From positions 1 through 64,000 of the forward strand of contig NZ_JAHXBG010000031.1 in NCBI RefSeq assembly GCF_020103725.1: a stretch of 64,000 bases of DNA, in the 5' to 3' direction. The notes beneath the pieces were generated by a model, which had not been told where the DNA came from, made no database searches, and saw nothing but the letters and a program-made list of their open reading frames with translations. Shown here in pieces: positions 31,420 to 40,248 of this stretch; the first letter of the stretch is position 1, and each line of letters begins with the position of its first letter. Both the position numbers and the translations under genes were made by a program. The DNA is from Hyalangium gracile (GTDB lineage: Bacteria; Myxococcota; Myxococcia; Myxococcales; Myxococcaceae).

Positions 31420-31950
31420 CTACAGGTTGAGGTCCGGCTTGCCCTCTTCGTCCTTCGGCCCGTCCTCGGGCGTCGGCGGTGGCGCATCGGGCGTGGGCGG
31501 CGCCAGCTCCCGCCGTGTCCCACCGCCCACCTTGTCCATCAAATCGATGGGCGGCTGTCCGGGCACCTCCACCTGGAGCACCTGGTAGGTCCAATCCTCG
31601 GCGCTCTTGGTCGCCTCGACGTGGAGCAGGCCGGCGGCCTTGGAGCCCTGAAGGGGGATGCCGAACCGGGCGCTGCTCTGGCCGTTGATGTACTGGACGG
31701 AGGTCTGCCAGTCCGAGCCCTCCTGGATGGGCGTGCCGAGCGTGGCCTGCACCTCCGAGTCCGAGGTGGCGATGGCCACGGCATTCACGGCCGCCGGGTT
31801 CTTCTTCGCGGCGGTGAAGCCCGTGAAGACGGCGATGGCGCCGAAGCACATGCACGAGGCCACGATGCCCAGGCACCCCACGGGCACCGCCCACTTCCAG
31901 TTCCGGCTCCACCAGCTGGGCTGTGGCGCCATGTTGCCTTCCGGCGTCAT
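31420..31950 (-). CDS. Coa1-like (cytochrome oxidase assembly protein 1) membrane protein
   Basis: 176 residues from the ATG at 31950, which has GGAGGGG 6 bases upstream. A single membrane span follows a short Trp-rich N-terminus ('SWWSRNWKWAVPVGCLGIVA...CFGAIAVFTGF'). The next 90 residues form a domain with 'VNAVAIATSDSEVQATLGTPI' and 'SVQYINGQSSARFGIPLQGSKAAGLLHVEATK', resembling the Coa1 fold. The C-terminus is a Pro/Asp-rich tail. In mitochondria Coa1 helps assemble cytochrome oxidase; in bacteria similar proteins are widespread and mostly uncharacterised. The assignment is by eye. Confidence 0.7.
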   Translation of the reverse strand: MTPEGNMAPQPSWWSRNWKWAVPVGCLGIVASCMCFGAIAVFTGFTAAKKNPAAVNAVAIATSDSEVQATLGTPIQEGSDWQTSVQYINGQSSARFGIPLQGSKAAGLLHVEATKSAEDWTYQVLQVEVPGQPPIDLMDKVGGGTRRELAPPTPDAPPPTPEDGPKDEEGKPDLNL

Positions 31951-32092: not shown

Positions 32093-32503
32093 ATGGCCGC
32101 GTACTTCATGAGCCTGGGGGCCCCTGGCCGGAGGGCGAGCCGCCGGGAGATGGCCGTGGCTGCATTCCTTCCCAAGAATGGACGCGAGCGGCTCGCGGGC
32201 GCGGGCGCGGACGTGCTACGCGCGGTACCCCGGATCCACCCGGACGCTGGCGTGCAACGTGTGTCGGGGAAGCTGAAGGCGGCAGGGCCCGATGACTTCA
32301 TGCACCACTTCGAGGACGAGCAGCGCCAGGTCTCCGAGGTGGCCGAGCGCATCGTGGAACTGGTGGACGGACGGCGGACGGTGGCCGACATCGTGGCGGT
32401 GCTGTGCGAGGAGTTCGAGGTGGAGCCGGAGGCGTGCCGTGAGGACACGGTCGCCTTCGTGAGACTCCTCGTGGAGAAGAAGGTGCTGGTGCTCGGCTCG
32501 TGA
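32093..32503 (+). CDS. PqqD-like protein (RiPP recognition element fold)
   Basis: 136 residues from the ATG at 32093, preceded by GGGGAGGGGG. The C-terminal 90 residues read as a PqqD-type winged-helix: 'VPRIHPDAGVQRVSGKLKAAG' then 'EVAERIVELVDGRRTVADIVAVLCEEFEV...CREDTVAFVRLLVEKKVLVL', the helix-turn pattern of leader-peptide-binding domains. In RiPP systems such proteins bind a precursor leader and bring it to a modifying enzyme. An unusual 40-residue N-terminal extension precedes the domain. The end overlaps the frame of the giant lipoprotein gene, so the two are probably cotranscribed. See the linked findings on the 46-aa peptide. Confidence 0.8.
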   Translation: MAAYFMSLGAPGRRASRREMAVAAFLPKNGRERLAGAGADVLRAVPRIHPDAGVQRVSGKLKAAGPDDFMHHFEDEQRQVSEVAERIVELVDGRRTVADIVAVLCEEFEVEPEACREDTVAFVRLLVEKKVLVLGS

Positions 32504-32565
32504 GGGCCGGGCACTCAGGCCGTGAGCGGCGGGCCGCTGGAGCCCGCCGAGAGGGTGAGAGACGT

Positions 32566-35500
32566 ATGCGCCGAGCGGTATGGCAGTGGCTGCTGGTGGG
32601 CTTCGCCCTGGTGTGGGGCGCCTCGGGGTGTAACTGCGGCGAGCCGCCCGTCGAGTCTCAGCTCGAGGTGGCCTTCGATCGGCCCAAGGACGGCGATCGG
32701 CTGTCGGCGGTGGACGACGCGGATCCCGCCACGGACGGCTTCCAGTACGAGGTGGTCGCGGTGGCGCGCGACACGGCGGACCGGCCGCTGAAGCTGGCCA
32801 GCGCGAAGCTGGAGGTGCGCGGGCCCAACGAGCAGACGTGGAACGCGGGGCCGGAGGCCGTCATCGACGGGGCCACGGTGCGCTTCCCGGGCACGCTGCT
32901 GCAGCCGCGCACCAACCTGCTGCAGGTGACGGTGGAGGAGGCAGGCTCGCGCCGCACGGCCACCCAGCGCATCAGCGTGACGGTCGCCCCCGAGCCGCCG
33001 TCCGTCGATCTCACCCAGCCCGCCGAGGGCCAGGTGCTGCGCGAGAAGGATGACGCGGATCCAGACACCGCGGGCTACCAGCTCCACTTCTCCCTGCGCA
33101 GCTCCGGGCTGGCCGGGAAGGCAGGCACGCTCTACTGCGAGAACGCGTGCGGCGTGCCGCCCACGGACTTCACCGTGAACAGCAGCGGGCTGACGCAGGT
33201 GTCGGTGACGCTGACGCAGTCCGCGTGCGAGGCCCAGCAGGCCGCGTGCTACGCGGTGGTACGCAACGGCACCCAGGAGGTGACGTCCAGCAAGCGCAAC
33301 ATCCAGCTGGACACGGTGGCTCCGCGCGTGGAGCTGGCTTCGCCCGTGGCGCCCGTGACTTCCACGACCTTCAAGGTGGAGGCCACCGTGGGCTGCACCG
33401 AGCCCGGTGTGGTGGCGACCCTCTCGCGAGAGGGCATGCCGGACATGCCCGCTCAGGTGGTAGGCCGTGGCGTGACGTTCCCCGCCGTCACCGTGCCGAC
33501 GGATGGGCAGTACACCTTCACGCTGCGCGTGGCCGACGAGGGGGGCAACGTCACCACCCGGCAGATCCCCGTCACCGTGGCGAGTACCCCTCCCACCCTC
33601 AAGCTCGTCGTGCCGAAGACGATCACCTCGGACACCGTGGATGGGCGGCTCGACAACGGCCTGCAGGCGACCGTGAGCGTGCAGGCGGACTCGCTGCCCG
33701 TCGGTACGGAGGTCCGGCTCTTCACCTCCGTCAACAGCCAGTTCGCTCGCCCGCAGCGGGCCGTGACGGCGACGGTGGGTGGCAACCGCGTGGCCACCTT
33801 CACCGCGCAGCTCGCCGAGGGGACCAACCCCGTGCAGGCCTGCGTGAGCAACGCCGCCGGCCTGGAGCAGTGCGCGGCCGAGTCCGTCACCGTCTCCACG
33901 AGCCGACCCGTCTGCCGCATCATCACTCCGCTCGCGGGTGCCCTCACTCGCACCTCGCCCACGGAGGTGCAGGTGGAGTCGGGGGCCGGCCCCGTCACCG
34001 TGGTGGCGTATGACCTGGACGGCATGGAGCGGGGCCGCGTCAGTGGGACGGCGTCCTCTGGCTCGGCGCGGGTGTCGATGCCGCTGGCGGCGGACGGTGA
34101 GTACCGCCTGGTGGCTTCCTGCCCCGGTGGGGGAACCAGCCAGGCGCTCTCCCTGGGCGTGGATACCACGGCTCCGGCGCTGTCGTTCAACGTGCATGGG
34201 CTGCCCACCGGGCAGACCACGCTGGGGCCCGAGCTGAACGATTCCTCCCTGAGCCCGGGCATCCAGGTCTCCCTGGATGTGACGACCGAGCCGCGCGCTT
34301 CGGTGCTCGCCACGGGCTGTGGCATGACGGTGGGGGTGGCCGGGCAGGCGGATGCGAGCGGCGCCCTCCTGCTGCGAGATGTCTCCGTGCCGGACAGCGG
34401 GACGTGTGAGCTGCGGCTGACCTCCACGGATCCCGCCGGGAATGTCACCACGACGACCCAGGCCCTGACGCTGGTCTTCGCTGGCAGCTCGCTGCGCTTC
34501 GTGTCACCCCAGGCCGGGCGCTACCTGGGCGCGACGGACGGGGTGATCCGGGATGACGGAGGGCTGCTGGTGTCCGTGGGCCTGGAGGTGGGGGCCACCG
34601 CGGCGGGAACCCTCCGCTTGCTGCGAGGTACGACGGAGATCGCCTCCTTGCCCGTGGCGGCCAACGAGACGCGGAAGACCTTCACGAACGTCGCCCTGGA
34701 GGATGGCGCCAACGTGCTGCGCGCCGAGCTCACCGGCCCCGGAGGCACGGTCGCCTGCGCGACCATCCTCCTGCTGGTCGACACCGAGCCGGGGAACATC
34801 ACCCTGATCATCCCGACGACCGCGCCCGACCCTTACAAGGTCAGCCTGGATGCGGCACCGGCGCTGAGTGGCATCCAGGCCCAGCTTCAGTACAGCGCGC
34901 CCAACCGCTCGCCGAGCGCCGTCGTGGACATCTGCACGAGCGTGGCGCTCGTCCAGGGCGCTACCCCCTGTCGCGATGGGTCGGGCTGGTTCACTCTCGC
35001 CGCGAACGTTCCCCCCTCCGTCCCGAACTTCACCTATCCCGACGGCCGGTACGCGCTGAAGGCCGTGCTCGATGATGGGGCCATCTCCGTCTCCCAGGAA
35101 GTCACCCTCAGGGTGGACAGCGTCGAGCCCGTGGTCCGCTCCGTGGAGCTGCTCGGAGATACCAACGGTGACAAGCGACTGAACGCGGAGGAGCTCCCTA
35201 CCGGAGCACCTCAGCTCCAGGTCGCCGTGGACGGCCTGGAGGATGGGAGTCCGGTGCAGGTGCGCGACCTGGAAAACCGGAATGTGATCTACGGCGAGGG
35301 CCGCGCCTCGGGCGGCCGAGCCACCGTCTCGCTGACGGCCATGCCGACGGGAGTGGCGGACGACTATTCCGTCGTCGTCACCGTGACGGACGCCGCGGGC
35401 AACCAGAACCGGGTGGACAATGACACGGTGTTCTACCCGCTCAATACGGCGGCCCGCTTCTCGTTCGTCCTCGATCGCGTGTTGCCTGTCCTGGTGCTGA

Positions 35501-38370
35501 CCTCGCCCACGCGGACCTCGCTAGGGAAGGCGGACGACGCATCGACCGCCGGTGGCTTCCAGCTCAGCGTCACCGTCAACACCGCCGCGGACGTGGGGAC
35601 GGGAGGCGTCCACATGGAGCTGTCGCCCGCTGGCGAGGTCGTGGACCTCACCCCGGCCTCGCTCGTCGCCAGACACGACTTCACCCTGCCGGAGACGGGG
35701 AAGGTGACGTACACGCTGACGGTCACCGCCACGGACACCTCGGGCAACCGCAGCGCCGCCGTGGTTCGCACCCTCACCGTGGACCAGGAGTCGCCGACCG
35801 TCACACTGGTGACGCCTACCGAGGGCACCTACGACAGCACCGAGGTGCCCGTTCAGGTGGACGTGGGCGGAGGGGACGTCGGCTCGGTGAGCGTCTTCTC
35901 GCAGGTGGGCTCGAGCGCCCTGGTGCTCATCGGCAACCTGCCCGTCGTGTCGGGGGTTGCGCAGGGCACCCTCAACTTCCCCATCGGGCTGCAGACGGTC
36001 TCGGTGCAGGCCAGCGACGCCGCGGGAAACACGGCCAGCGACTCGGAGCCGAACGTGGAGGTGCGCCAGGCCGGCTGCGACATCACCCTCACCGCTCCGG
36101 CCTCCGCGGTGGCCACGCTGCTCGCGAAGGATGACCAGGATCCGTCGACTCCGGGCTTGCAGTACCGCGTGAAGGGCAACAGCCAGTCATGCCGTGGCGC
36201 GGTGGTGTCGCTCTATCGAGGGACCTCCACCACGCCCGAGGCCACCACGACGGTGGACCCGGTGACGGCGGGCTTCTTGTTCGATGTGACGCTCGCGGAC
36301 GGCGAGCAGACGCGCCTCACCGTGGAGATCATCAACGTCTCCTCCATCCGCACCATCGACTACGCGGACGTGACGGTGGACATCACCCCGCCGCTCATCA
36401 CCTCCATCTCGCCGACCCCGACGACGCTCTACTTCGTGGCCAGCTCCAATGCGTACCTCTTCCCGACGCCCGCTCCCGATCGGGTGGTGGATGGCTCTCC
36501 GGGGCGGGATGCCGACGCGACCTTCACCCTCACCGTGGCCCAGGGCGTCGGGAGCAAGGTCCAGGCCTTCTACCGCGGCGTTCCCGTGTCGGCGGAGCGC
36601 CCCGTCGTGCTTGATCCGGAGACGCTGCCTGTCCCGGTGACGCTGCCCCACGACACCGTGGGCACGCTCGAGCTGCGCGTGCAGGACGCCTCGGGGAACG
36701 TGGCGCTCCATACCGTGGCGGCCACCGTGGACGTGATTCCGCCCACGGCTCCGACGGTGTCCCGGACGCTGGTGGCGGGGCAGGAGCGCGCGGCGAAGGT
36801 CAACGTGAGCTGGACCGCCAGCGGGGATGATGAGCTCTCGGGGATGCCCGCGGGCTATGACCTGCGCTGGACCGTCAACGCCCAGCTCAAGAACGGCATC
36901 ACGGACGAGAACGCGTTCGCCAGCCCGAAGGTGAAGCAGGAGACGGGCAGCCTCCTGCCGGCCACCTCCACGAGCTACGAGCTGACGCTGCCGCCCCTGG
37001 CCAGCTACTCCATCCAGCTGCGGCCGCGAGACGAGGTGGGCAACTACCCGCCGTTCCAGGTGGCGGACTCGGCGCTCATCCCCAACTTCTGGACCACCAA
37101 GACGCTGAACAACCCCGGCGCCTCGACCGCCAGCTACGGCCTCTACATCACCTCGCGTGGAGACCTGAACGCGGACGGCTTCGATGACCTGGTGGTGGGG
37201 GCGTCCTTCGGCACTCCTGGAGCGGCCTACATCTATTACGGCTCGAACAACCCGCAGGTCGAGAACCGCCAGGATCTGACGCTGCCCGAGGGGGGCAACC
37301 AGTTCTATGGAGGAGACTTCGACGTCGGCGACGCCGGCAATCCCACGGCGGACCGGGTGCAGGACCTGCTGATCAGCGCGCGCGGCTATTCGAGCACCAG
37401 CGGGAGGGCCTTCCTCTACTTCGGGCGCAAGGGCACGACGGTGGACACCACGGGCGCCATCGAGTTCCGCCTCCCCACCAGCATCAACAACGCCTCCCTG
37501 GGCGGGACGGCGAAGATGATTGGCGACATCACGGGCGACGGGCTGCAGGAGATCATCCTCAGCTCGCACGGCGAGAACCCACCCAAGGCGTACATGTTCT
37601 ATGGGCGCTCACCGGACGAGTGGCGCGCCCTGGGAAGCGGCTGCAACGCCAGCTCGGCCTGCGTGGTCCCCGCGAGCAGCGCGAACAAGATTTTCTCCGC
37701 GCCCGCGGGCACCTCCTTCTTTGGAAGGAATCGCGGCTATGTCCGGCTCGGGGACATCACGGGTGACGGGGTCACGGACTTCACCATCCCCTCGTCCCAC
37801 GAGACGCAGAACAAGGTCTATGTGTACTCGGGAGCCACCGTGCGCTCGTTGCCTGGGAGCGCGGTCTCCATCTCCGATGCGCTCCAGGTGCTCAGCCAGC
37901 CTACTGGGGCCACGGCGACCAACGGCTTCGGTACCGAGGCCGCCGGAGGAGTGGATCTGGCCGGCGGACCGGGGCTCGACCTCGTGGTGAGCATGGCGGT
38001 CGAGAACAAGGTGTTCGTGTACCGGGATGGGAACGCGCAGGGCTTCACGACGTCCCCGCTGCTCATCCTGGGCGGAAGCCGGTTCGGCACGGCCCTGGCG
38101 CGCGGTGACCTGAACGGTGACGGTCGTCCGGACATCGCGATCGGGCAGAACCTCCAGCCGGGAGGTTCCGCGTACGTCTTCTACAACCGCGGGGTGCCCG
38201 GGGCGGAGTTCGACACGGTGGCGGAAGACGGCTTCTTCCAGTCCAAGCTGGAGTCCAACAGCTCGTTTGGCATCAGCCTGAGCATCCTGGACTACAATGG
38301 GGACGGAAAACCCGATCTGGCCGTGGGAGACCATCAATCGAGTCCGGCACGCGTCGTGGTGTACTATTAG
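32566..38370 (+). CDS. Giant lipoprotein with Ig-like domains and C-terminal FG-GAP beta-propeller
   Basis: 1934 residues from the ATG at 32566; the signal peptide ends in a lipobox (GASGC, Cys about 22). Residues about 30-1400 are strings of Ig/cadherin-like domains ('TNPVQACVSNAAGLEQCAAESVTVS', 'TSTDPAGNVTTTTQALTL'). A recurring DDxDPxTxGxQ motif marks some domain starts (about 45, 160, 990 and 1188), and an EF-hand-like 'DTNGDKRLNAEE' occurs near 866. A fibronectin III-like domain precedes the last 410 residues, which hold about seven FG-GAP/VCBS blades such as 'GDLNADGFDDLVVGAS', 'GDITGDGLQEIILSS', 'GDLNGDGRPDIAIGQ' and 'DYNGDGKPDLAVGD', the calcium-binding loops of an integrin-like propeller. 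It should be on the cell surface. It lies between the PqqD-like gene and the small peptide gene. Confidence 0.88.
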   Translation: MRRAVWQWLLVGFALVWGASGCNCGEPPVESQLEVAFDRPKDGDRLSAVDDADPATDGFQYEVVAVARDTADRPLKLASAKLEVRGPNEQTWNAGPEAVIDGATVRFPGTLLQPRTNLLQVTVEEAGSRRTATQRISVTVAPEPPSVDLTQPAEGQVLREKDDADPDTAGYQLHFSLRSSGLAGKAGTLYCENACGVPPTDFTVNSSGLTQVSVTLTQSACEAQQAACYAVVRNGTQEVTSSKRNIQLDTVAPRVELASPVAPVTSTTFKVEATVGCTEPGVVATLSREGMPDMPAQVVGRGVTFPAVTVPTDGQYTFTLRVADEGGNVTTRQIPVTVASTPPTLKLVVPKTITSDTVDGRLDNGLQATVSVQADSLPVGTEVRLFTSVNSQFARPQRAVTATVGGNRVATFTAQLAEGTNPVQACVSNAAGLEQCAAESVTVSTSRPVCRIITPLAGALTRTSPTEVQVESGAGPVTVVAYDLDGMERGRVSGTASSGSARVSMPLAADGEYRLVASCPGGGTSQALSLGVDTTAPALSFNVHGLPTGQTTLGPELNDSSLSPGIQVSLDVTTEPRASVLATGCGMTVGVAGQADASGALLLRDVSVPDSGTCELRLTSTDPAGNVTTTTQALTLVFAGSSLRFVSPQAGRYLGATDGVIRDDGGLLVSVGLEVGATAAGTLRLLRGTTEIASLPVAANETRKTFTNVALEDGANVLRAELTGPGGTVACATILLLVDTEPGNITLIIPTTAPDPYKVSLDAAPALSGIQAQLQYSAPNRSPSAVVDICTSVALVQGATPCRDGSGWFTLAANVPPSVPNFTYPDGRYALKAVLDDGAISVSQEVTLRVDSVEPVVRSVELLGDTNGDKRLNAEELPTGAPQLQVAVDGLEDGSPVQVRDLENRNVIYGEGRASGGRATVSLTAMPTGVADDYSVVVTVTDAAGNQNRVDNDTVFYPLNTAARFSFVLDRVLPVLVLTSPTRTSLGKADDASTAGGFQLSVTVNTAADVGTGGVHMELSPAGEVVDLTPASLVARHDFTLPETGKVTYTLTVTATDTSGNRSAAVVRTLTVDQESPTVTLVTPTEGTYDSTEVPVQVDVGGGDVGSVSVFSQVGSSALVLIGNLPVVSGVAQGTLNFPIGLQTVSVQASDAAGNTASDSEPNVEVRQAGCDITLTAPASAVATLLAKDDQDPSTPGLQYRVKGNSQSCRGAVVSLYRGTSTTPEATTTVDPVTAGFLFDVTLADGEQTRLTVEIINVSSIRTIDYADVTVDITPPLITSISPTPTTLYFVASSNAYLFPTPAPDRVVDGSPGRDADATFTLTVAQGVGSKVQAFYRGVPVSAERPVVLDPETLPVPVTLPHDTVGTLELRVQDASGNVALHTVAATVDVIPPTAPTVSRTLVAGQERAAKVNVSWTASGDDELSGMPAGYDLRWTVNAQLKNGITDENAFASPKVKQETGSLLPATSTSYELTLPPLASYSIQLRPRDEVGNYPPFQVADSALIPNFWTTKTLNNPGASTASYGLYITSRGDLNADGFDDLVVGASFGTPGAAYIYYGSNNPQVENRQDLTLPEGGNQFYGGDFDVGDAGNPTADRVQDLLISARGYSSTSGRAFLYFGRKGTTVDTTGAIEFRLPTSINNASLGGTAKMIGDITGDGLQEIILSSHGENPPKAYMFYGRSPDEWRALGSGCNASSACVVPASSANKIFSAPAGTSFFGRNRGYVRLGDITGDGVTDFTIPSSHETQNKVYVYSGATVRSLPGSAVSISDALQVLSQPTGATATNGFGTEAAGGVDLAGGPGLDLVVSMAVENKVFVYRDGNAQGFTTSPLLILGGSRFGTALARGDLNGDGRPDIAIGQNLQPGGSAYVFYNRGVPGAEFDTVAEDGFFQSKLESNSSFGISLSILDYNGDGKPDLAVGDHQSSPARVVVYY

Positions 38371-38379
38371 AGGGGAGCC

Positions 38380-38520
38380 ATGACGACGGCGCAGCCGAAA
38401 CCAGCCGGGAAGAAGAAGGTCTACGTGCCACCCCAGGTGCGCTCGGAGAAGATCCTCGTGCCCGATCTCTTCCAGCCGAGCTGCTTCGTCGATCCCGAGA
38501 ACCCCCCGAACTGCCTGTAG
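38380..38520 (+). CDS. 46-residue peptide, candidate RiPP-like precursor
   Basis: A short frame with a clear AGGGGAG site 5 bases before its ATG, starting 9 bases after the giant lipoprotein gene. The leader-like part has a basic KKK run and 'VYVPPQVRSEKILVPDLF', in which Tyr15-x-x-Pro18-x-Val matches the YxxP motif that recognition elements read in lasso-peptide leaders. The last 15 residues, QPSCFVDPENPPNCL, hold two Cys separated by 10 residues and several Pro and Asn. No signal peptide. The next gene begins 14 bases later. Role as a precursor is inferred from size, the YxxP motif and neighbours (PqqD-like, HprK-like, peptidase). A free regulatory or structural peptide is the alternative. 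Confidence 0.7.
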   Translation: MTTAQPKPAGKKKVYVPPQVRSEKILVPDLFQPSCFVDPENPPNCL

Positions 38521-38534
38521 GCTTCGGAGCTCGA

Positions 38535-39293
38535 ATGCGGCTGCTGCGCTTCGGTGACTGGAGCGTGGGAGTGGATGAGGAGCTCCTGACCCGGGCCGGC
38601 GAGCGGTGCACGCTGGCTCCCTTCCTGGCGCCTTCCGAGGGCTCCGTCCGGCTGCGGTTGAGGGCCAGGACGGTGCCGGCGGGGCAGGGGGCTCCGCTCG
38701 ATCCCCGCAACCCGTCCGGGGCTCGCTTCCAGGTGCAAGGGGACGTGGTGGACGTGGAGCCCCCGCGCGCGGAGCTCGACACCGAGCTGGCCCTGCGCGT
38801 GGGCATGCAGCTCGCCACGCTCCGGCAGGGCGGCCTGCTGCTGCACGCGGCGGGCGTGTCCTTCCAGGGGCGTGGCGTGGTCGCCATCGGGCCGAGCGGG
38901 GCCGGTAAGTCCACGTGGACGCGGCTGTGCGCCCGGGCCGCCGGGGCGGACGTGCTCTCGGATGAGGTGGTGGCGCTCCTTCCGGACGGGTGGGCGGAGG
39001 GCAGCCCGTTCTGCTCGGACCTGGATCTCCCCTCCACCCTGGCGCGAGCACGGCTGGTGGCGGTGCTCCTGCTGCGCAAGGGCCCGGAGGAGCGGATGGA
39101 GGAGGTATCCGCCGACGAGGCCATCCCGGCGCTGATGGGGCAGGTGTTCCGGCCGCTCCCGGGGGAGGCCACTCCGGGAGACATCCTCCAGCGCCTGGCC
39201 GGCATCTCCGAGAAGGTTGCCCTGAGACGTTTCGTCTTCCGCAAGCATGAGGCCGCGGCGGGCTTCGTGCGAGAGTGGCTCGATGGCCAGTAG
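38535..39293 (+). CDS. HprK-like P-loop kinase
   Basis: 252 residues. The central part has 'GGLLLHAAGVSFQGRGVVAIGPSGAGKSTWTRL' (Walker A GPSGAGKS at 119-126) and 'GADVLSDEVVALLPDG' (Walker-B-like at about 141-146), the pattern of HPr kinase/phosphorylase relatives. The N-terminal 100 residues are beta-rich and not recognised. Related proteins occur in lasso-peptide clusters, where one phosphorylates the C-terminal Ser of the precursor, and in the HPr-rel-A systems with PqqD relatives. The stop overlaps the next gene by 11 bases. Substrate is unknown; the upstream 46-aa peptide is the obvious candidate, although it lacks a C-terminal Ser. Confidence 0.85.
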   Translation: MRLLRFGDWSVGVDEELLTRAGERCTLAPFLAPSEGSVRLRLRARTVPAGQGAPLDPRNPSGARFQVQGDVVDVEPPRAELDTELALRVGMQLATLRQGGLLLHAAGVSFQGRGVVAIGPSGAGKSTWTRLCARAAGADVLSDEVVALLPDGWAEGSPFCSDLDLPSTLARARLVAVLLLRKGPEERMEEVSADEAIPALMGQVFRPLPGEATPGDILQRLAGISEKVALRRFVFRKHEAAAGFVREWLDGQ

Positions 39294-40248
39294 GCATCCC
39301 ACGGATCTGGCGGCGCTCGTCGAGGCGACACCTCCCGGCCGGCAGCTCTGGCTGCGAGGCGCGGGGCGGAGCCTGTATCCGCTGCTGCGGAGCGGAGACT
39401 CGGTCCGGGTGCTGCGGTGCGAGCCGGAGGCGCTCGTCCGAGGGGACATGGCGCTCGTGAGGGTGGGGCGCAAGCTCGTCGCGCACGTGGTGGTCTCCAC
39501 CCAGCCCGTGCTGACGGCTTCCCTGCTCGGCGGGAAGGATCCGGTGGGCGAGCCGCTCGGGCGCATCACCGCGCTGCGTCGGGGGCCCCTGCTCCTTCCG
39601 CTGCCCCGGCTGGCGAGCCCTTCGCTCTTCCTGGGGCAGCGGCTCCTGTCCCGGCTGTGGACGCGTCCCCAGGCCCGCTCGGTCTTCCGGCGACTTCGGG
39701 ACTTCTCCGTGTCCGGATGGTCCCGCCCGCTGCGGCAGCGGTGGCTCGGGAAGCTCGAGGTCCGGCTGCTCCGGGAGGAGGACCTGGACGCGCTCCTCGT
39801 GTTCGCGGGAGAGCGGCTGCTGGTGCCCTCGAGCTTCCTGCGCCAGCAGCTCCTGGACCGCTGGACGCGCCAGGAGGGGATGCTGGGCGCGGCGGTGGGC
39901 GCCTTCGATCCGAGGGGGCGGCTGCACGGCTTCGCGTACATGGATGACTACCGCCAGGAGGGCCTGCAGCTGGAGGGGCTCTGGGTGCGCTCGCTGGTGG
40001 TGGCGCCGAGGGCTCGCCGGATGGGCCTCGCCTTCCGGATCATCCACTGCCTCCTGGAGGAGGCCCGGCGGCAGGGGGCCGATCGGCTCTTCGCGGACAT
40101 CGACGACGACAACATGGCCTCGCTGAGGACGTTCCGGAGGGCCGGCTTCAAGGACTCCTCCGCCGAGCTCACCCGGCGAGTGAACTCGGAGTGGAGCGCC
40201 TCGGGCGGGCTCAAGCCCCTGGTCGTCGTGGAGCGCGCGCTGGATTGA
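39283..40248 (+). CDS. Fusion: S24/S26-like peptidase domain + GNAT acetyltransferase
   Basis: 321 residues from the ATG at 39283, overlapping the kinase gene. Residues 20-110 look like an S24/S26 peptidase module: 'GAGRSLYPLLRSGDSVRVLR' gives the GxSxxPxLxxGDxVxV signature with catalytic Ser30, and 'LVRGDMALVRVGRKLVAHVVV' follows, but the usual Lys general base cannot be placed firmly. Residues about 155-300 form a GNAT domain with the acetyl-CoA loop 'LVVAPRARRMGLAFRIIHCLL' and 'DDDNMASLRTFRRAGF'. Peptidase and acetyltransferase would fit leader removal and N-terminal capping of the peptide; this pairing is inference. Peptidase fold without proteolysis is the alternative. Confidence 0.78.
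   Translation: MASRHPTDLAALVEATPPGRQLWLRGAGRSLYPLLRSGDSVRVLRCEPEALVRGDMALVRVGRKLVAHVVVSTQPVLTASLLGGKDPVGEPLGRITALRRGPLLLPLPRLASPSLFLGQRLLSRLWTRPQARSVFRRLRDFSVSGWSRPLRQRWLGKLEVRLLREEDLDALLVFAGERLLVPSSFLRQQLLDRWTRQEGMLGAAVGAFDPRGRLHGFAYMDDYRQEGLQLEGLWVRSLVVAPRARRMGLAFRIIHCLLEEARRQGADRLFADIDDDNMASLRTFRRAGFKDSSAELTRRVNSEWSASGGLKPLVVVERALD

Follow-up and report, generated by a model that had tools for sequence, protein, structure and literature searches.

The locus in the Hyalangium gracile window

The stretch analysed here (hereafter the window) comprises 64,000 nucleotides of Hyalangium gracile (RefSeq assembly GCF_020103725.1, contig NZ_JAHXBG010000031.1, positions 1 to 64,000 of the forward strand), and our subject is a run of five genes in it that encode a PqqD-like protein, a giant FG-GAP lipoprotein, a short peptide, an HprK-like kinase and an S24-GNAT fusion protein. 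An earlier note on this DNA had proposed that the five form one system for a ribosomally synthesized and post-translationally modified peptide (RiPP). Our reading of the open reading frames agreed with it that all five lie on the plus strand at the positions it had listed, with the last three nearly touching or overlapping; the gaps measure 62, 9 and 14 bases in order, followed by an overlap between the kinase and S24-GNAT genes.

The first gene (32093–32503) encodes a PqqD-like leader-binding protein of the RiPP recognition element type (Pfam PqqD, 1.9e-13, 50.9 bits against a cut-off of 23.4). Since its conserved part begins only at ~32210, where the profile match starts (2e-44), the true start may lie later than 32093. 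It is followed by the gene of a secreted lipoprotein of 1934 amino acids (32566–38370), with a signal that carries a lipobox-like ASGC (read by eye), Ig-like repeats (Big_13, 2.4e-14) and a C-terminal FG-GAP beta-propeller (1e-25). The precursor peptide gene (38380–38520, 46 amino acids, single copy) encodes a putative leader of residues 1–31 ending in KKKVYVPPQVRSEKILVPDLF (38380–38472) and a putative core, QPSCFVDPENPPNCL (38473–38517), with two Cys and a Ser at core position 3 (codon 38479–38481). The division between the two was placed by the spacing of lasso peptide leaders, with Tyr at −17, in a comparison of 43 peptides, so the cleavage site is a predicted one.

The kinase gene spans 38535–39293. 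The last gene encodes an S24/S26-like domain (39283–39690, end approximate), with Ser30 at 39370–39372 and His68 at 39484–39486, fused to a GNAT acetyltransferase domain (39754–40248, start approximate; Pfam Acetyltransf_1, 2.2e-11). Its start had been put at 39247, which is probably wrong: the nearest relative (L031) begins at the residue that matches the ATG at 39283, and from there the gene overlaps the kinase gene by 11 bases. The S24 profile match of the window protein was weak (11.2 bits against a cut-off of 23.3), and a relative from a paralogous system described below (L065) reached 44.2 bits. Single-sequence structure predictions for the kinase and the S24-GNAT protein had mean pLDDT values of 34.3 and 33.8 and were not used in fold searches.

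Distribution and conservation of the unit

With the window kinase as query, a match was found in 80 of the 96 genomes of the family at E 0.001, with a single copy in the genome of the window, and a profile of 29 kinases matched 116 of 195 genomes of the phylum at 1e-15. Stretches of up to 20 kb were taken around 40 family matches and 20 outgroup matches. Loci are numbered with L, genomes with G and genus groups, which were fixed beforehand, as g1–g26. Our core comparison set holds the window and L031–L051, the 21 best other kinase matches in the family (22 genomes, 10 genera).

PqqD, the FG-GAP protein, the kinase and the S24-like domain were all present at 22/22 core loci (in L050 the S24 gene comes before the kinase). 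A peptide frame with a YxxP motif (WxxP in L051) directly followed the FG-GAP gene at every one of these loci, 20 of which were flagged by a stricter regular expression. The check proposed in the earlier note, linkage of the five components and conservation of the peptide frame, was thereby passed, and the note's view of a conserved RiPP-kind unit of leader binder, YxxP precursor, HprK-like kinase and protease was supported. What did not hold is the inclusion of the whole last gene: PqqD, lipoprotein, peptide, kinase and the S24 half belong to the unit, and the GNAT half is separable from it (see below). The flanking etfA, EamA-like and MBL-fold genes were all found at 18/22 loci. Among the next nine loci (L052–L060), two had the full set, four had PqqD and FG-GAP genes with the kinase a few kb off, and in three the kinase alone was seen in the fetched stretch. 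At the etf locus the genes for PqqD, lipoprotein, peptide and kinase (hereafter the block) are jointly present or jointly absent.

Exchange of lipoprotein, peptide and kinase between genera

Trees were built for the flanks and for each component, with the first 240 residues of the lipoprotein taken as its N-terminus and the last 460 as its C-terminus. L044, L050 and L051 were left out of all trees and L040 and L046 also of the approximately unbiased (AU) tests, which therefore covered 17 rows (16 where a component was missing) of the 22 loci. The types A–D referred to here were named only after kinase identities and peptides had been inspected.

The flank trees held g1 (99/97) and g3 (100/99) together. 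Loci of g1 and g8 formed one clade in the trees of the flanks (98/96), PqqD (91/93), S24-GNAT (95/98) and the lipoprotein N-terminus (92/93), and this clade was rejected by the kinase (AU 4.8e-87) and the lipoprotein C-terminus (1.4e-5), as was the g3 clade (2.0e-6 and 8.2e-7, respectively). The kinases instead fell into type A (g1, g8 and one g19 locus; 98/97), type B (three g3 loci and L047; 100/100) and type C (two g3 and two g5 loci; 100/99), and the lipoprotein C-terminus gave the identical three types (96/99, 100/99 and 100/100). Type B was rejected by the flanks (1.4e-6), PqqD (0.0087), S24-GNAT (0.0014) and the lipoprotein N-terminus (6.3e-44), the PqqD tree grouping by genus and not by type B, though with modest support; type C was rejected by the flanks (2.6e-66) and S24-GNAT (0.010). 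Peptide cores carried motifs common to a type across genera (A, DPE..C; B, CxPxC; C, CDPxxDPRPxC), and no lipoprotein type was decoupled from the core and kinase type among the 17 rows compared.

Pairwise identities gave the same picture. Pairs from the same genus and of different type were 93, 89 and 79% identical in etfA, MBL and PqqD, versus 45% in the kinase and 46% in the lipoprotein C-terminus. Across genera, pairs of the same type were 87% (etfA), 66% (EamA), 64% (kinase) and 54% (lipoprotein C-terminus) identical; for pairs that differed in both genus and type the kinase values were 44 and 43%. L047, from the genus of the window, is a clear case: it is 93, 84, 78, 80 and 91% identical to the window in etfA, PqqD, S24-GNAT, EamA and MBL, and only 43% in the kinase and the lipoprotein C-terminus, where it is closer to L045 of another genus (67 and 58%).

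Sliding identity between the lipoproteins of L047 and the window fell from 82, 89, 76 and 58% in successive 100-column steps to 29–51%, which puts the upstream boundary of this exchange at about residue 260. On this comparison, together with the nucleotide comparison and the N-terminus tree, residues ~1–260 (32566–33345) are the genus-bound part in the L047 exchange; the remaining Ig repeats and the propeller (33346–38370), the last 460 residues of which resolve types A, B and C, form the exchangeable part. In two cases, L047 and L042/L043 (the latter compared with L037 and with L039/L041), the downstream boundary was found no more than about 200 bases from the 3′ end of the kinase gene. These comparisons indicate that the two exchanges were independent events that both ended near the kinase/S24 junction, and that the kinase, the peptide core and most of the lipoprotein have passed between genera as one set, with the flanks following the genus.

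Several observations count against so clean a picture. PqqD did not reject type C (0.076) and supported g3 only weakly (53/32), and the lipoprotein N-terminus grouped type C (98/99) and weakly rejected g3 (0.031), which suggests that the type C exchange reached further upstream. The S24 gene is itself divergent in g3 (mean 59%, range 34–80%, for pairs of the same genus, g1 or g3, and different type). Moreover, since the three genes are adjacent, the target of selection could be any one of lipoprotein, peptide and kinase, and the other two could have moved as passengers.

In the most direct form of that argument, the lipoprotein alone diversifies, as an adhesin or as a receptor for phages or predators, and the peptide and kinase, which would mature or regulate it, are co-exchanged by adjacency. 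The three genes are indeed contiguous, also in the outgroup locus L115, and the lipoprotein offers much the largest target. This explanation is at odds with a downstream boundary that lies beyond peptide and kinase, near the kinase/S24 junction, in two independent exchanges, and with short peptide cores that are type-specific. We regard it as unlikely, though it keeps a real share of the probability.

The earlier note did not include this exchange of types across genera, which moves the likely function away from showing a single product on the surface and towards matched specificity. Its assignment of the 1934-residue lipoprotein to the unit holds (22/22 loci).

The precursor peptide and the kinase

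As a query, the window peptide alone found 14 of the 22 known loci; a profile built from 20 peptides took its place. This profile gave one match each in 25 of the 96 family genomes (20 are its own members, and four of the other five matches are weak), and in none of the 96 did it detect a second copy, with the limit that it misses the peptides of L050 and L051. Both Cys are invariant in the alignment of the 20 peptides. Two or more Cys occur in 15/15 unique peptides of types A–E, 8/8 of the paralogous system II, 5/7 outgroup peptides and 9/9 basal peptides of the window's own kind of system (system I). Under lasso spacing, Ser or Thr stands at core position 2 or 3 in the same 15/15, 8/8 and 5/7. 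Lasso leaders carry the Tyr at −17 relative to the core, as described for the bsf cluster (PMC10368454), and our peptides have the YxxP leader motif.

Pfam detected only P-loop matches in the kinase, and the NCBIfam models HprK_rel_B (2.4e-6) and HprK_rel_A (8.4e-6) matched far under their cut-offs. A PDB profile search with the kinase alignment likewise returned mostly P-loop matches; HPr kinase 1jb1 was found at E 0.014 over kinase positions 103–148, a span from His104 to Glu144. In the alignment of 29 kinases H104, G119xS121G122xG124K125S126T127 and D143E144 are invariant. The residue set H-G-G-G-K-S-D of the lasso kinase BsfK, taken from the account in PMC10368454, is thereby kept (H104, G119, G122, G124, K125, S126 and D143), and the second Asp of the lasso-kinase pair is Glu144 in all 29. 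HprK-like kinases are described as tailoring enzymes of lasso peptides (PMC8498205). In the bsf system, BsfK phosphorylates core Ser3, and the PqqD-like BsfB1 speeds the reaction (PMC10368454).

The S24-GNAT gene with and without the block

A relative of the last gene, by its S24 part, was found in 80/96 family genomes; in some genera the S24 half alone matches. For a set that lacks the block, we read the S24-GNAT gene at 41 loci of g6 (15/16 genomes) and g19 (26/27 genomes). At 40 of the 41, etfA ends 767–924 bases upstream of it, so that the whole block is missing at these 40 loci; the remaining one (L159), where the contig breaks off shortly before the gene, was counted all the same. The 19 block-side genes exclude L044, L050 and L051, the last two of which show Ser and His, and a 112-residue S24 fragment (G023) was left out of the dyad count.

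Ser30 and His68 were both kept in 19/19 block-side genes, and one or both were lost in 31 of the 41 block-less genes, where Ser is replaced by Cys (13), Asp (8) or Gly (6) and His by Gln (24) or Arg (4). Of 22 S24 columns that show no variation in block-side genes, the Ser and His columns have decayed furthest, being kept in 14 and 13 of the 41 block-less genes (the next column, in 26/41), and 9 of the 11 GNAT columns invariant beside the block stay invariant without it. The tree requires at least seven Ser changes and at least four His changes, none of them on branches with all-block tips. Branch sums were 7.9 (all-block), 3.4 (block-less) and 4.2 (mixed) substitutions per column, and the chance that all seven Ser changes fall on the shorter part is ~0.30 to the seventh power, or 2e-4, a rough hand figure that leaves out the mixed branches. 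G079, a g19 genome with the block (L037), keeps both residues.

The GNAT half behaves differently. The gene of L038 encodes only 145 amino acids, and Pfam found no GNAT domain in L038, L046 and L049, all of which have block and dyad (it found no S24 domain in L038 and L049 either). In L049 part of the GNAT stretch can still be aligned, which suggests a GNAT domain that is eroded rather than absent. Genes without the block, by comparison, keep full length. The simplest reading would be that the S24 half serves the block and that the GNAT half does something else, its function probably being separate from the block. Two results speak against a strict dependence of the dyad on the block: both residues are kept in 10/41 block-less genes, and a strict independent-pairs test of dyad against block, underpowered with its 3 pairs, was not significant (median p 0.5).

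An S24/S26 peptidase is recognised by a catalytic Ser with Lys or His, and Ser30/His68 supply such a pair in 19/19 genes. His can stand in for Lys, as in the ER-type signal peptidase. A second S24-GNAT relative was seen in g5 (L147, on contig C35 of G014); it has 331 amino acids, is 39% identical, and lies away from the etf locus and without the block.

A paralogous system and outgroup relatives

System II was read at nine loci from five genera (L061–L067, L069 and L070), flanked by genes that we take, from their sequences, to be hisS-like and miaA-like. Its usual order is an S24-like gene, PqqD, a small lipoprotein, a secreted propeller protein of ~1020 amino acids, the peptide and the kinase. 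The ~1020-residue protein ends in a beta-propeller (in L065, PQQ_2 at 1.2e-10 above the cut-off and the ACSF4 propeller at 3.6e-11 below it), and the peptide, with two Cys, contains YxPPAILWEQPFVALAQ at 7/9 loci. In both systems, as far as their predicted products tell, a YxPP peptide and an HprK-like kinase go together with a large secreted protein that bears a propeller.

System II also bears on the idea of a polymorphic toxin system, in which the modified peptide would be a bacteriocin-like weapon and the kinase or the lipoprotein would provide immunity or delivery. Polymorphic toxins exchange their gene tips, which resembles the exchange of alleles behind a constant N-terminus seen here, and the two-Cys cores would suit such a weapon. 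Against this, the profile found no orphan peptide module in the 96 genomes (L050 and L051 peptides being missed), and no immunity-like gene was recognised at the locus. Second kinase matches do occur in 10 family genomes with system I, and the four that were read (G006, G015, G043 and G079) proved to be system II. We consider a toxin system improbable.

Outgroup loci L105, L109, L111, L114 and L120, from other families of the phylum, were chosen for having a gene of ~350 amino acids beside PqqD and the kinase. Pfam placed Radical_SAM in 5/5 of these genes scanned and SPASM in 3/5; an assignment as nucleotidyltransferase was rejected on this result. A YxxP peptide is present at four of the five loci (not at L114). 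The radical SAM gene next to PqqD and the kinase supports the RiPP nature of this kind of system. L115, from the same class as the window, has an etfA fragment, PqqD, an Ig/FG-GAP giant, a Cys-less peptide and the kinase in this order. At L105 and L110 a C25-type peptidase gene adjoins PqqD.

In nine system I genomes that were searched, the 60 kb to either side of the kinase on its contig contained no radical SAM match. A profile of the five outgroup sequences, run on 20 genomes, had its best match in the window's own genome at 1.1e-34, and matches in the family reached 4.0e-47. Among eight order-level genomes, five gave 2.0e-106 to 1.6e-71 and the others 2.1e-26, 1.4e-19 and none. The own-genome match is weaker than those of the first five, and no clear orthologue that could act in trans was recognised.

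Another explanation is a RiPP natural product without a matched receptor, namely a phosphopeptide whose diversity is product diversity only: PqqD, the kinase, the YxxP leader and the radical SAM genes of outgroups all fit, as does the tailoring of lasso peptides by HprK-like kinases (PMC8498205). Such a product leaves unexplained why most of a 1934-residue surface lipoprotein is co-exchanged and why the chromosomal site is constant at 18/22 loci, and we think it quite improbable.

Comparison with known systems

The phosphorylated lasso clusters (paeninodin, bsf of Bradymonas sediminis and pseudomycoidin) share with the window a PqqD-type binder, a YxxP leader of the same spacing and an HprK-like kinase. 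The window system differs from them in its S24/S26-like protease, its two-Cys core and the exchange of its types across genera. Nor were their remaining enzymes found with it: the leader peptidase B2 (PF13471) had no match in the own genome at E 0.001, and the five own-genome matches to the asparagine-synthase family of the cyclase (PF00733) lie on contigs C2, C5, C9 and C15, none on the contig of the window (C31). For these two reasons membership among lasso systems fails. The earlier note had remarked that cyclase, radical SAM, LanM and YcaO enzymes are missing from the window; this stands for the cyclase on the window's contig and is modified by the radical SAM genes of relatives in the phylum, and LanM and YcaO were not searched.

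A lasso system with cyclase and B2 protease encoded elsewhere in the genome would account for leader spacing, PqqD and kinase, and one asparagine-synthase relative, on contig C5, is full-length, although it may be an ordinary asparagine synthetase. Lasso peptides are expected to have a small residue at core position 1, which is Q, T, A, S or D in our peptides. Together with the missing B2 match and the absence of an asparagine-synthase match from the window's contig, this leaves the lasso explanation with hardly any credence. An FG-GAP repeat protein is also encoded at the edge of the bsf cluster, and the authors of that work presumed it to be uninvolved (PMC10368454); it may reflect the same partnership as here.

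SynChlorMet and HPr-rel-A cassettes likewise combine an HprK-like kinase with a PqqD-like protein (ScmC with ScmD, and HprK_rel_A with PqqD_rel_X), and a radical SAM enzyme is present in outgroup members of our kind of system as well. The window proteins score far below the NCBIfam cut-offs (HprK_rel, 25–27 of 200 bits; ScmC, 17.5 of 125; ScmD, 20.8 of 100), and membership in either cassette family fails for this reason.

In the comQXP(A) pherotype system of Bacillus, as described in PMC6334282, modifier, peptide and receptor part vary together and each genome has a single system, which is similar to what we see. The window differs in having no histidine kinase or response regulator, an HprK-like kinase in place of the prenyltransferase and a giant lipoprotein, and our comparison spans species and genera, not strains. 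With the lipoprotein as putative receptor, ligand, modifier and receptor part do co-vary between constant flanks, as in a pherotype cassette. To our knowledge, TraA, the self-recognition receptor of myxobacteria, has no peptide or kinase partner. Like the lipoprotein, TraA is a polymorphic surface protein (PMC6372800); its recognition is described as homotypic (PMC6626042), unlike the matching of peptide and lipoprotein proposed here. No description of a peptide system with PqqD, kinase and FG-GAP protein was found in the titles and abstracts that our searches of the open-licence PMC literature returned. We place the system among kinase-containing PqqD peptide systems, with a new recognition system as the bolder possibility.

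A possible recognition system

The explanation to which we give most weight, tentatively and at a little short of evenly balanced, is a phosphopeptide RiPP-like system with matched specificity that acts like a pherotype cassette (comQ-comX-5′ comP). The PqqD-like protein would bind the constant leader (YxPPxVRSE), the HprK-like kinase would phosphorylate Ser or Thr at core position 2–3, and the S24/S26-like Ser-His protease, in the cytoplasm, would cleave near residue 31 to remove the leader. An unlinked exporter would then carry the two-Cys core out of the cell, and the Ig/FG-GAP lipoprotein that co-varies with it would bind it at the surface, which would let cells of the same type recognise it. 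Processing of the leader (PqqD, S24) would be constant, and modifier, ligand and receptor would be variable, with kinase and lipoprotein matched to the core. As a whole, this proposed chain of leader binding, phosphorylation, leader removal, export and recognition reaches further than the exchange and dyad evidence. Its widest form, a self-recognition code of myxobacteria in which a phosphorylated two-Cys RiPP, made with an S24/S26-type leader protease, is read by a matched cassette of peptide, kinase and giant lipoprotein, is conceivable and, in our view, rather doubtful.

Some findings pull the other way. Ser or Thr occupies core position 2 or 3 in only 4/9 basal system I peptides. In bsf, Ala at Tyr(−17) or Leu(−12), and double or triple exchanges with Pro(−14), left phosphorylation going (PMC10368454), so the YxxP motif alone is no proof of a phosphorylation step; a triple exchange in the YxxPxL residues impaired leader removal (PMC10368454). 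The peptides of system II are nearly invariant, so that polymorphism is no property of the whole kind. Furthermore, no exporter for the peptide and no cytoplasmic signalling partner was recognised among the genes of the locus, and Pfam found no inward-signalling domain in the lipoprotein.

If a matched recognition system of this kind is real, a model group for bacterial multicellularity would gain a polymorphic recognition locus, HprK-like peptide kinases would have a role beyond lasso peptides, and RiPP biosynthesis would have a further class of leader protease. The main text of a review of RiPP leader proteases (PMC10885120) does not contain signal peptidase, S24, S26 or LexA as terms. The natural exchange of types would make specificity directly testable by swapping types.

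Further observations at and around the locus

Five family genomes (G032–G035 of genus g7, and G001) have neither a kinase match at 1e-15 nor an S24-GNAT match at 1e-8. Between etfA and the block lies a small gene on the minus strand (31420–31950), present at most loci with or without the block; its product is probably a membrane protein.

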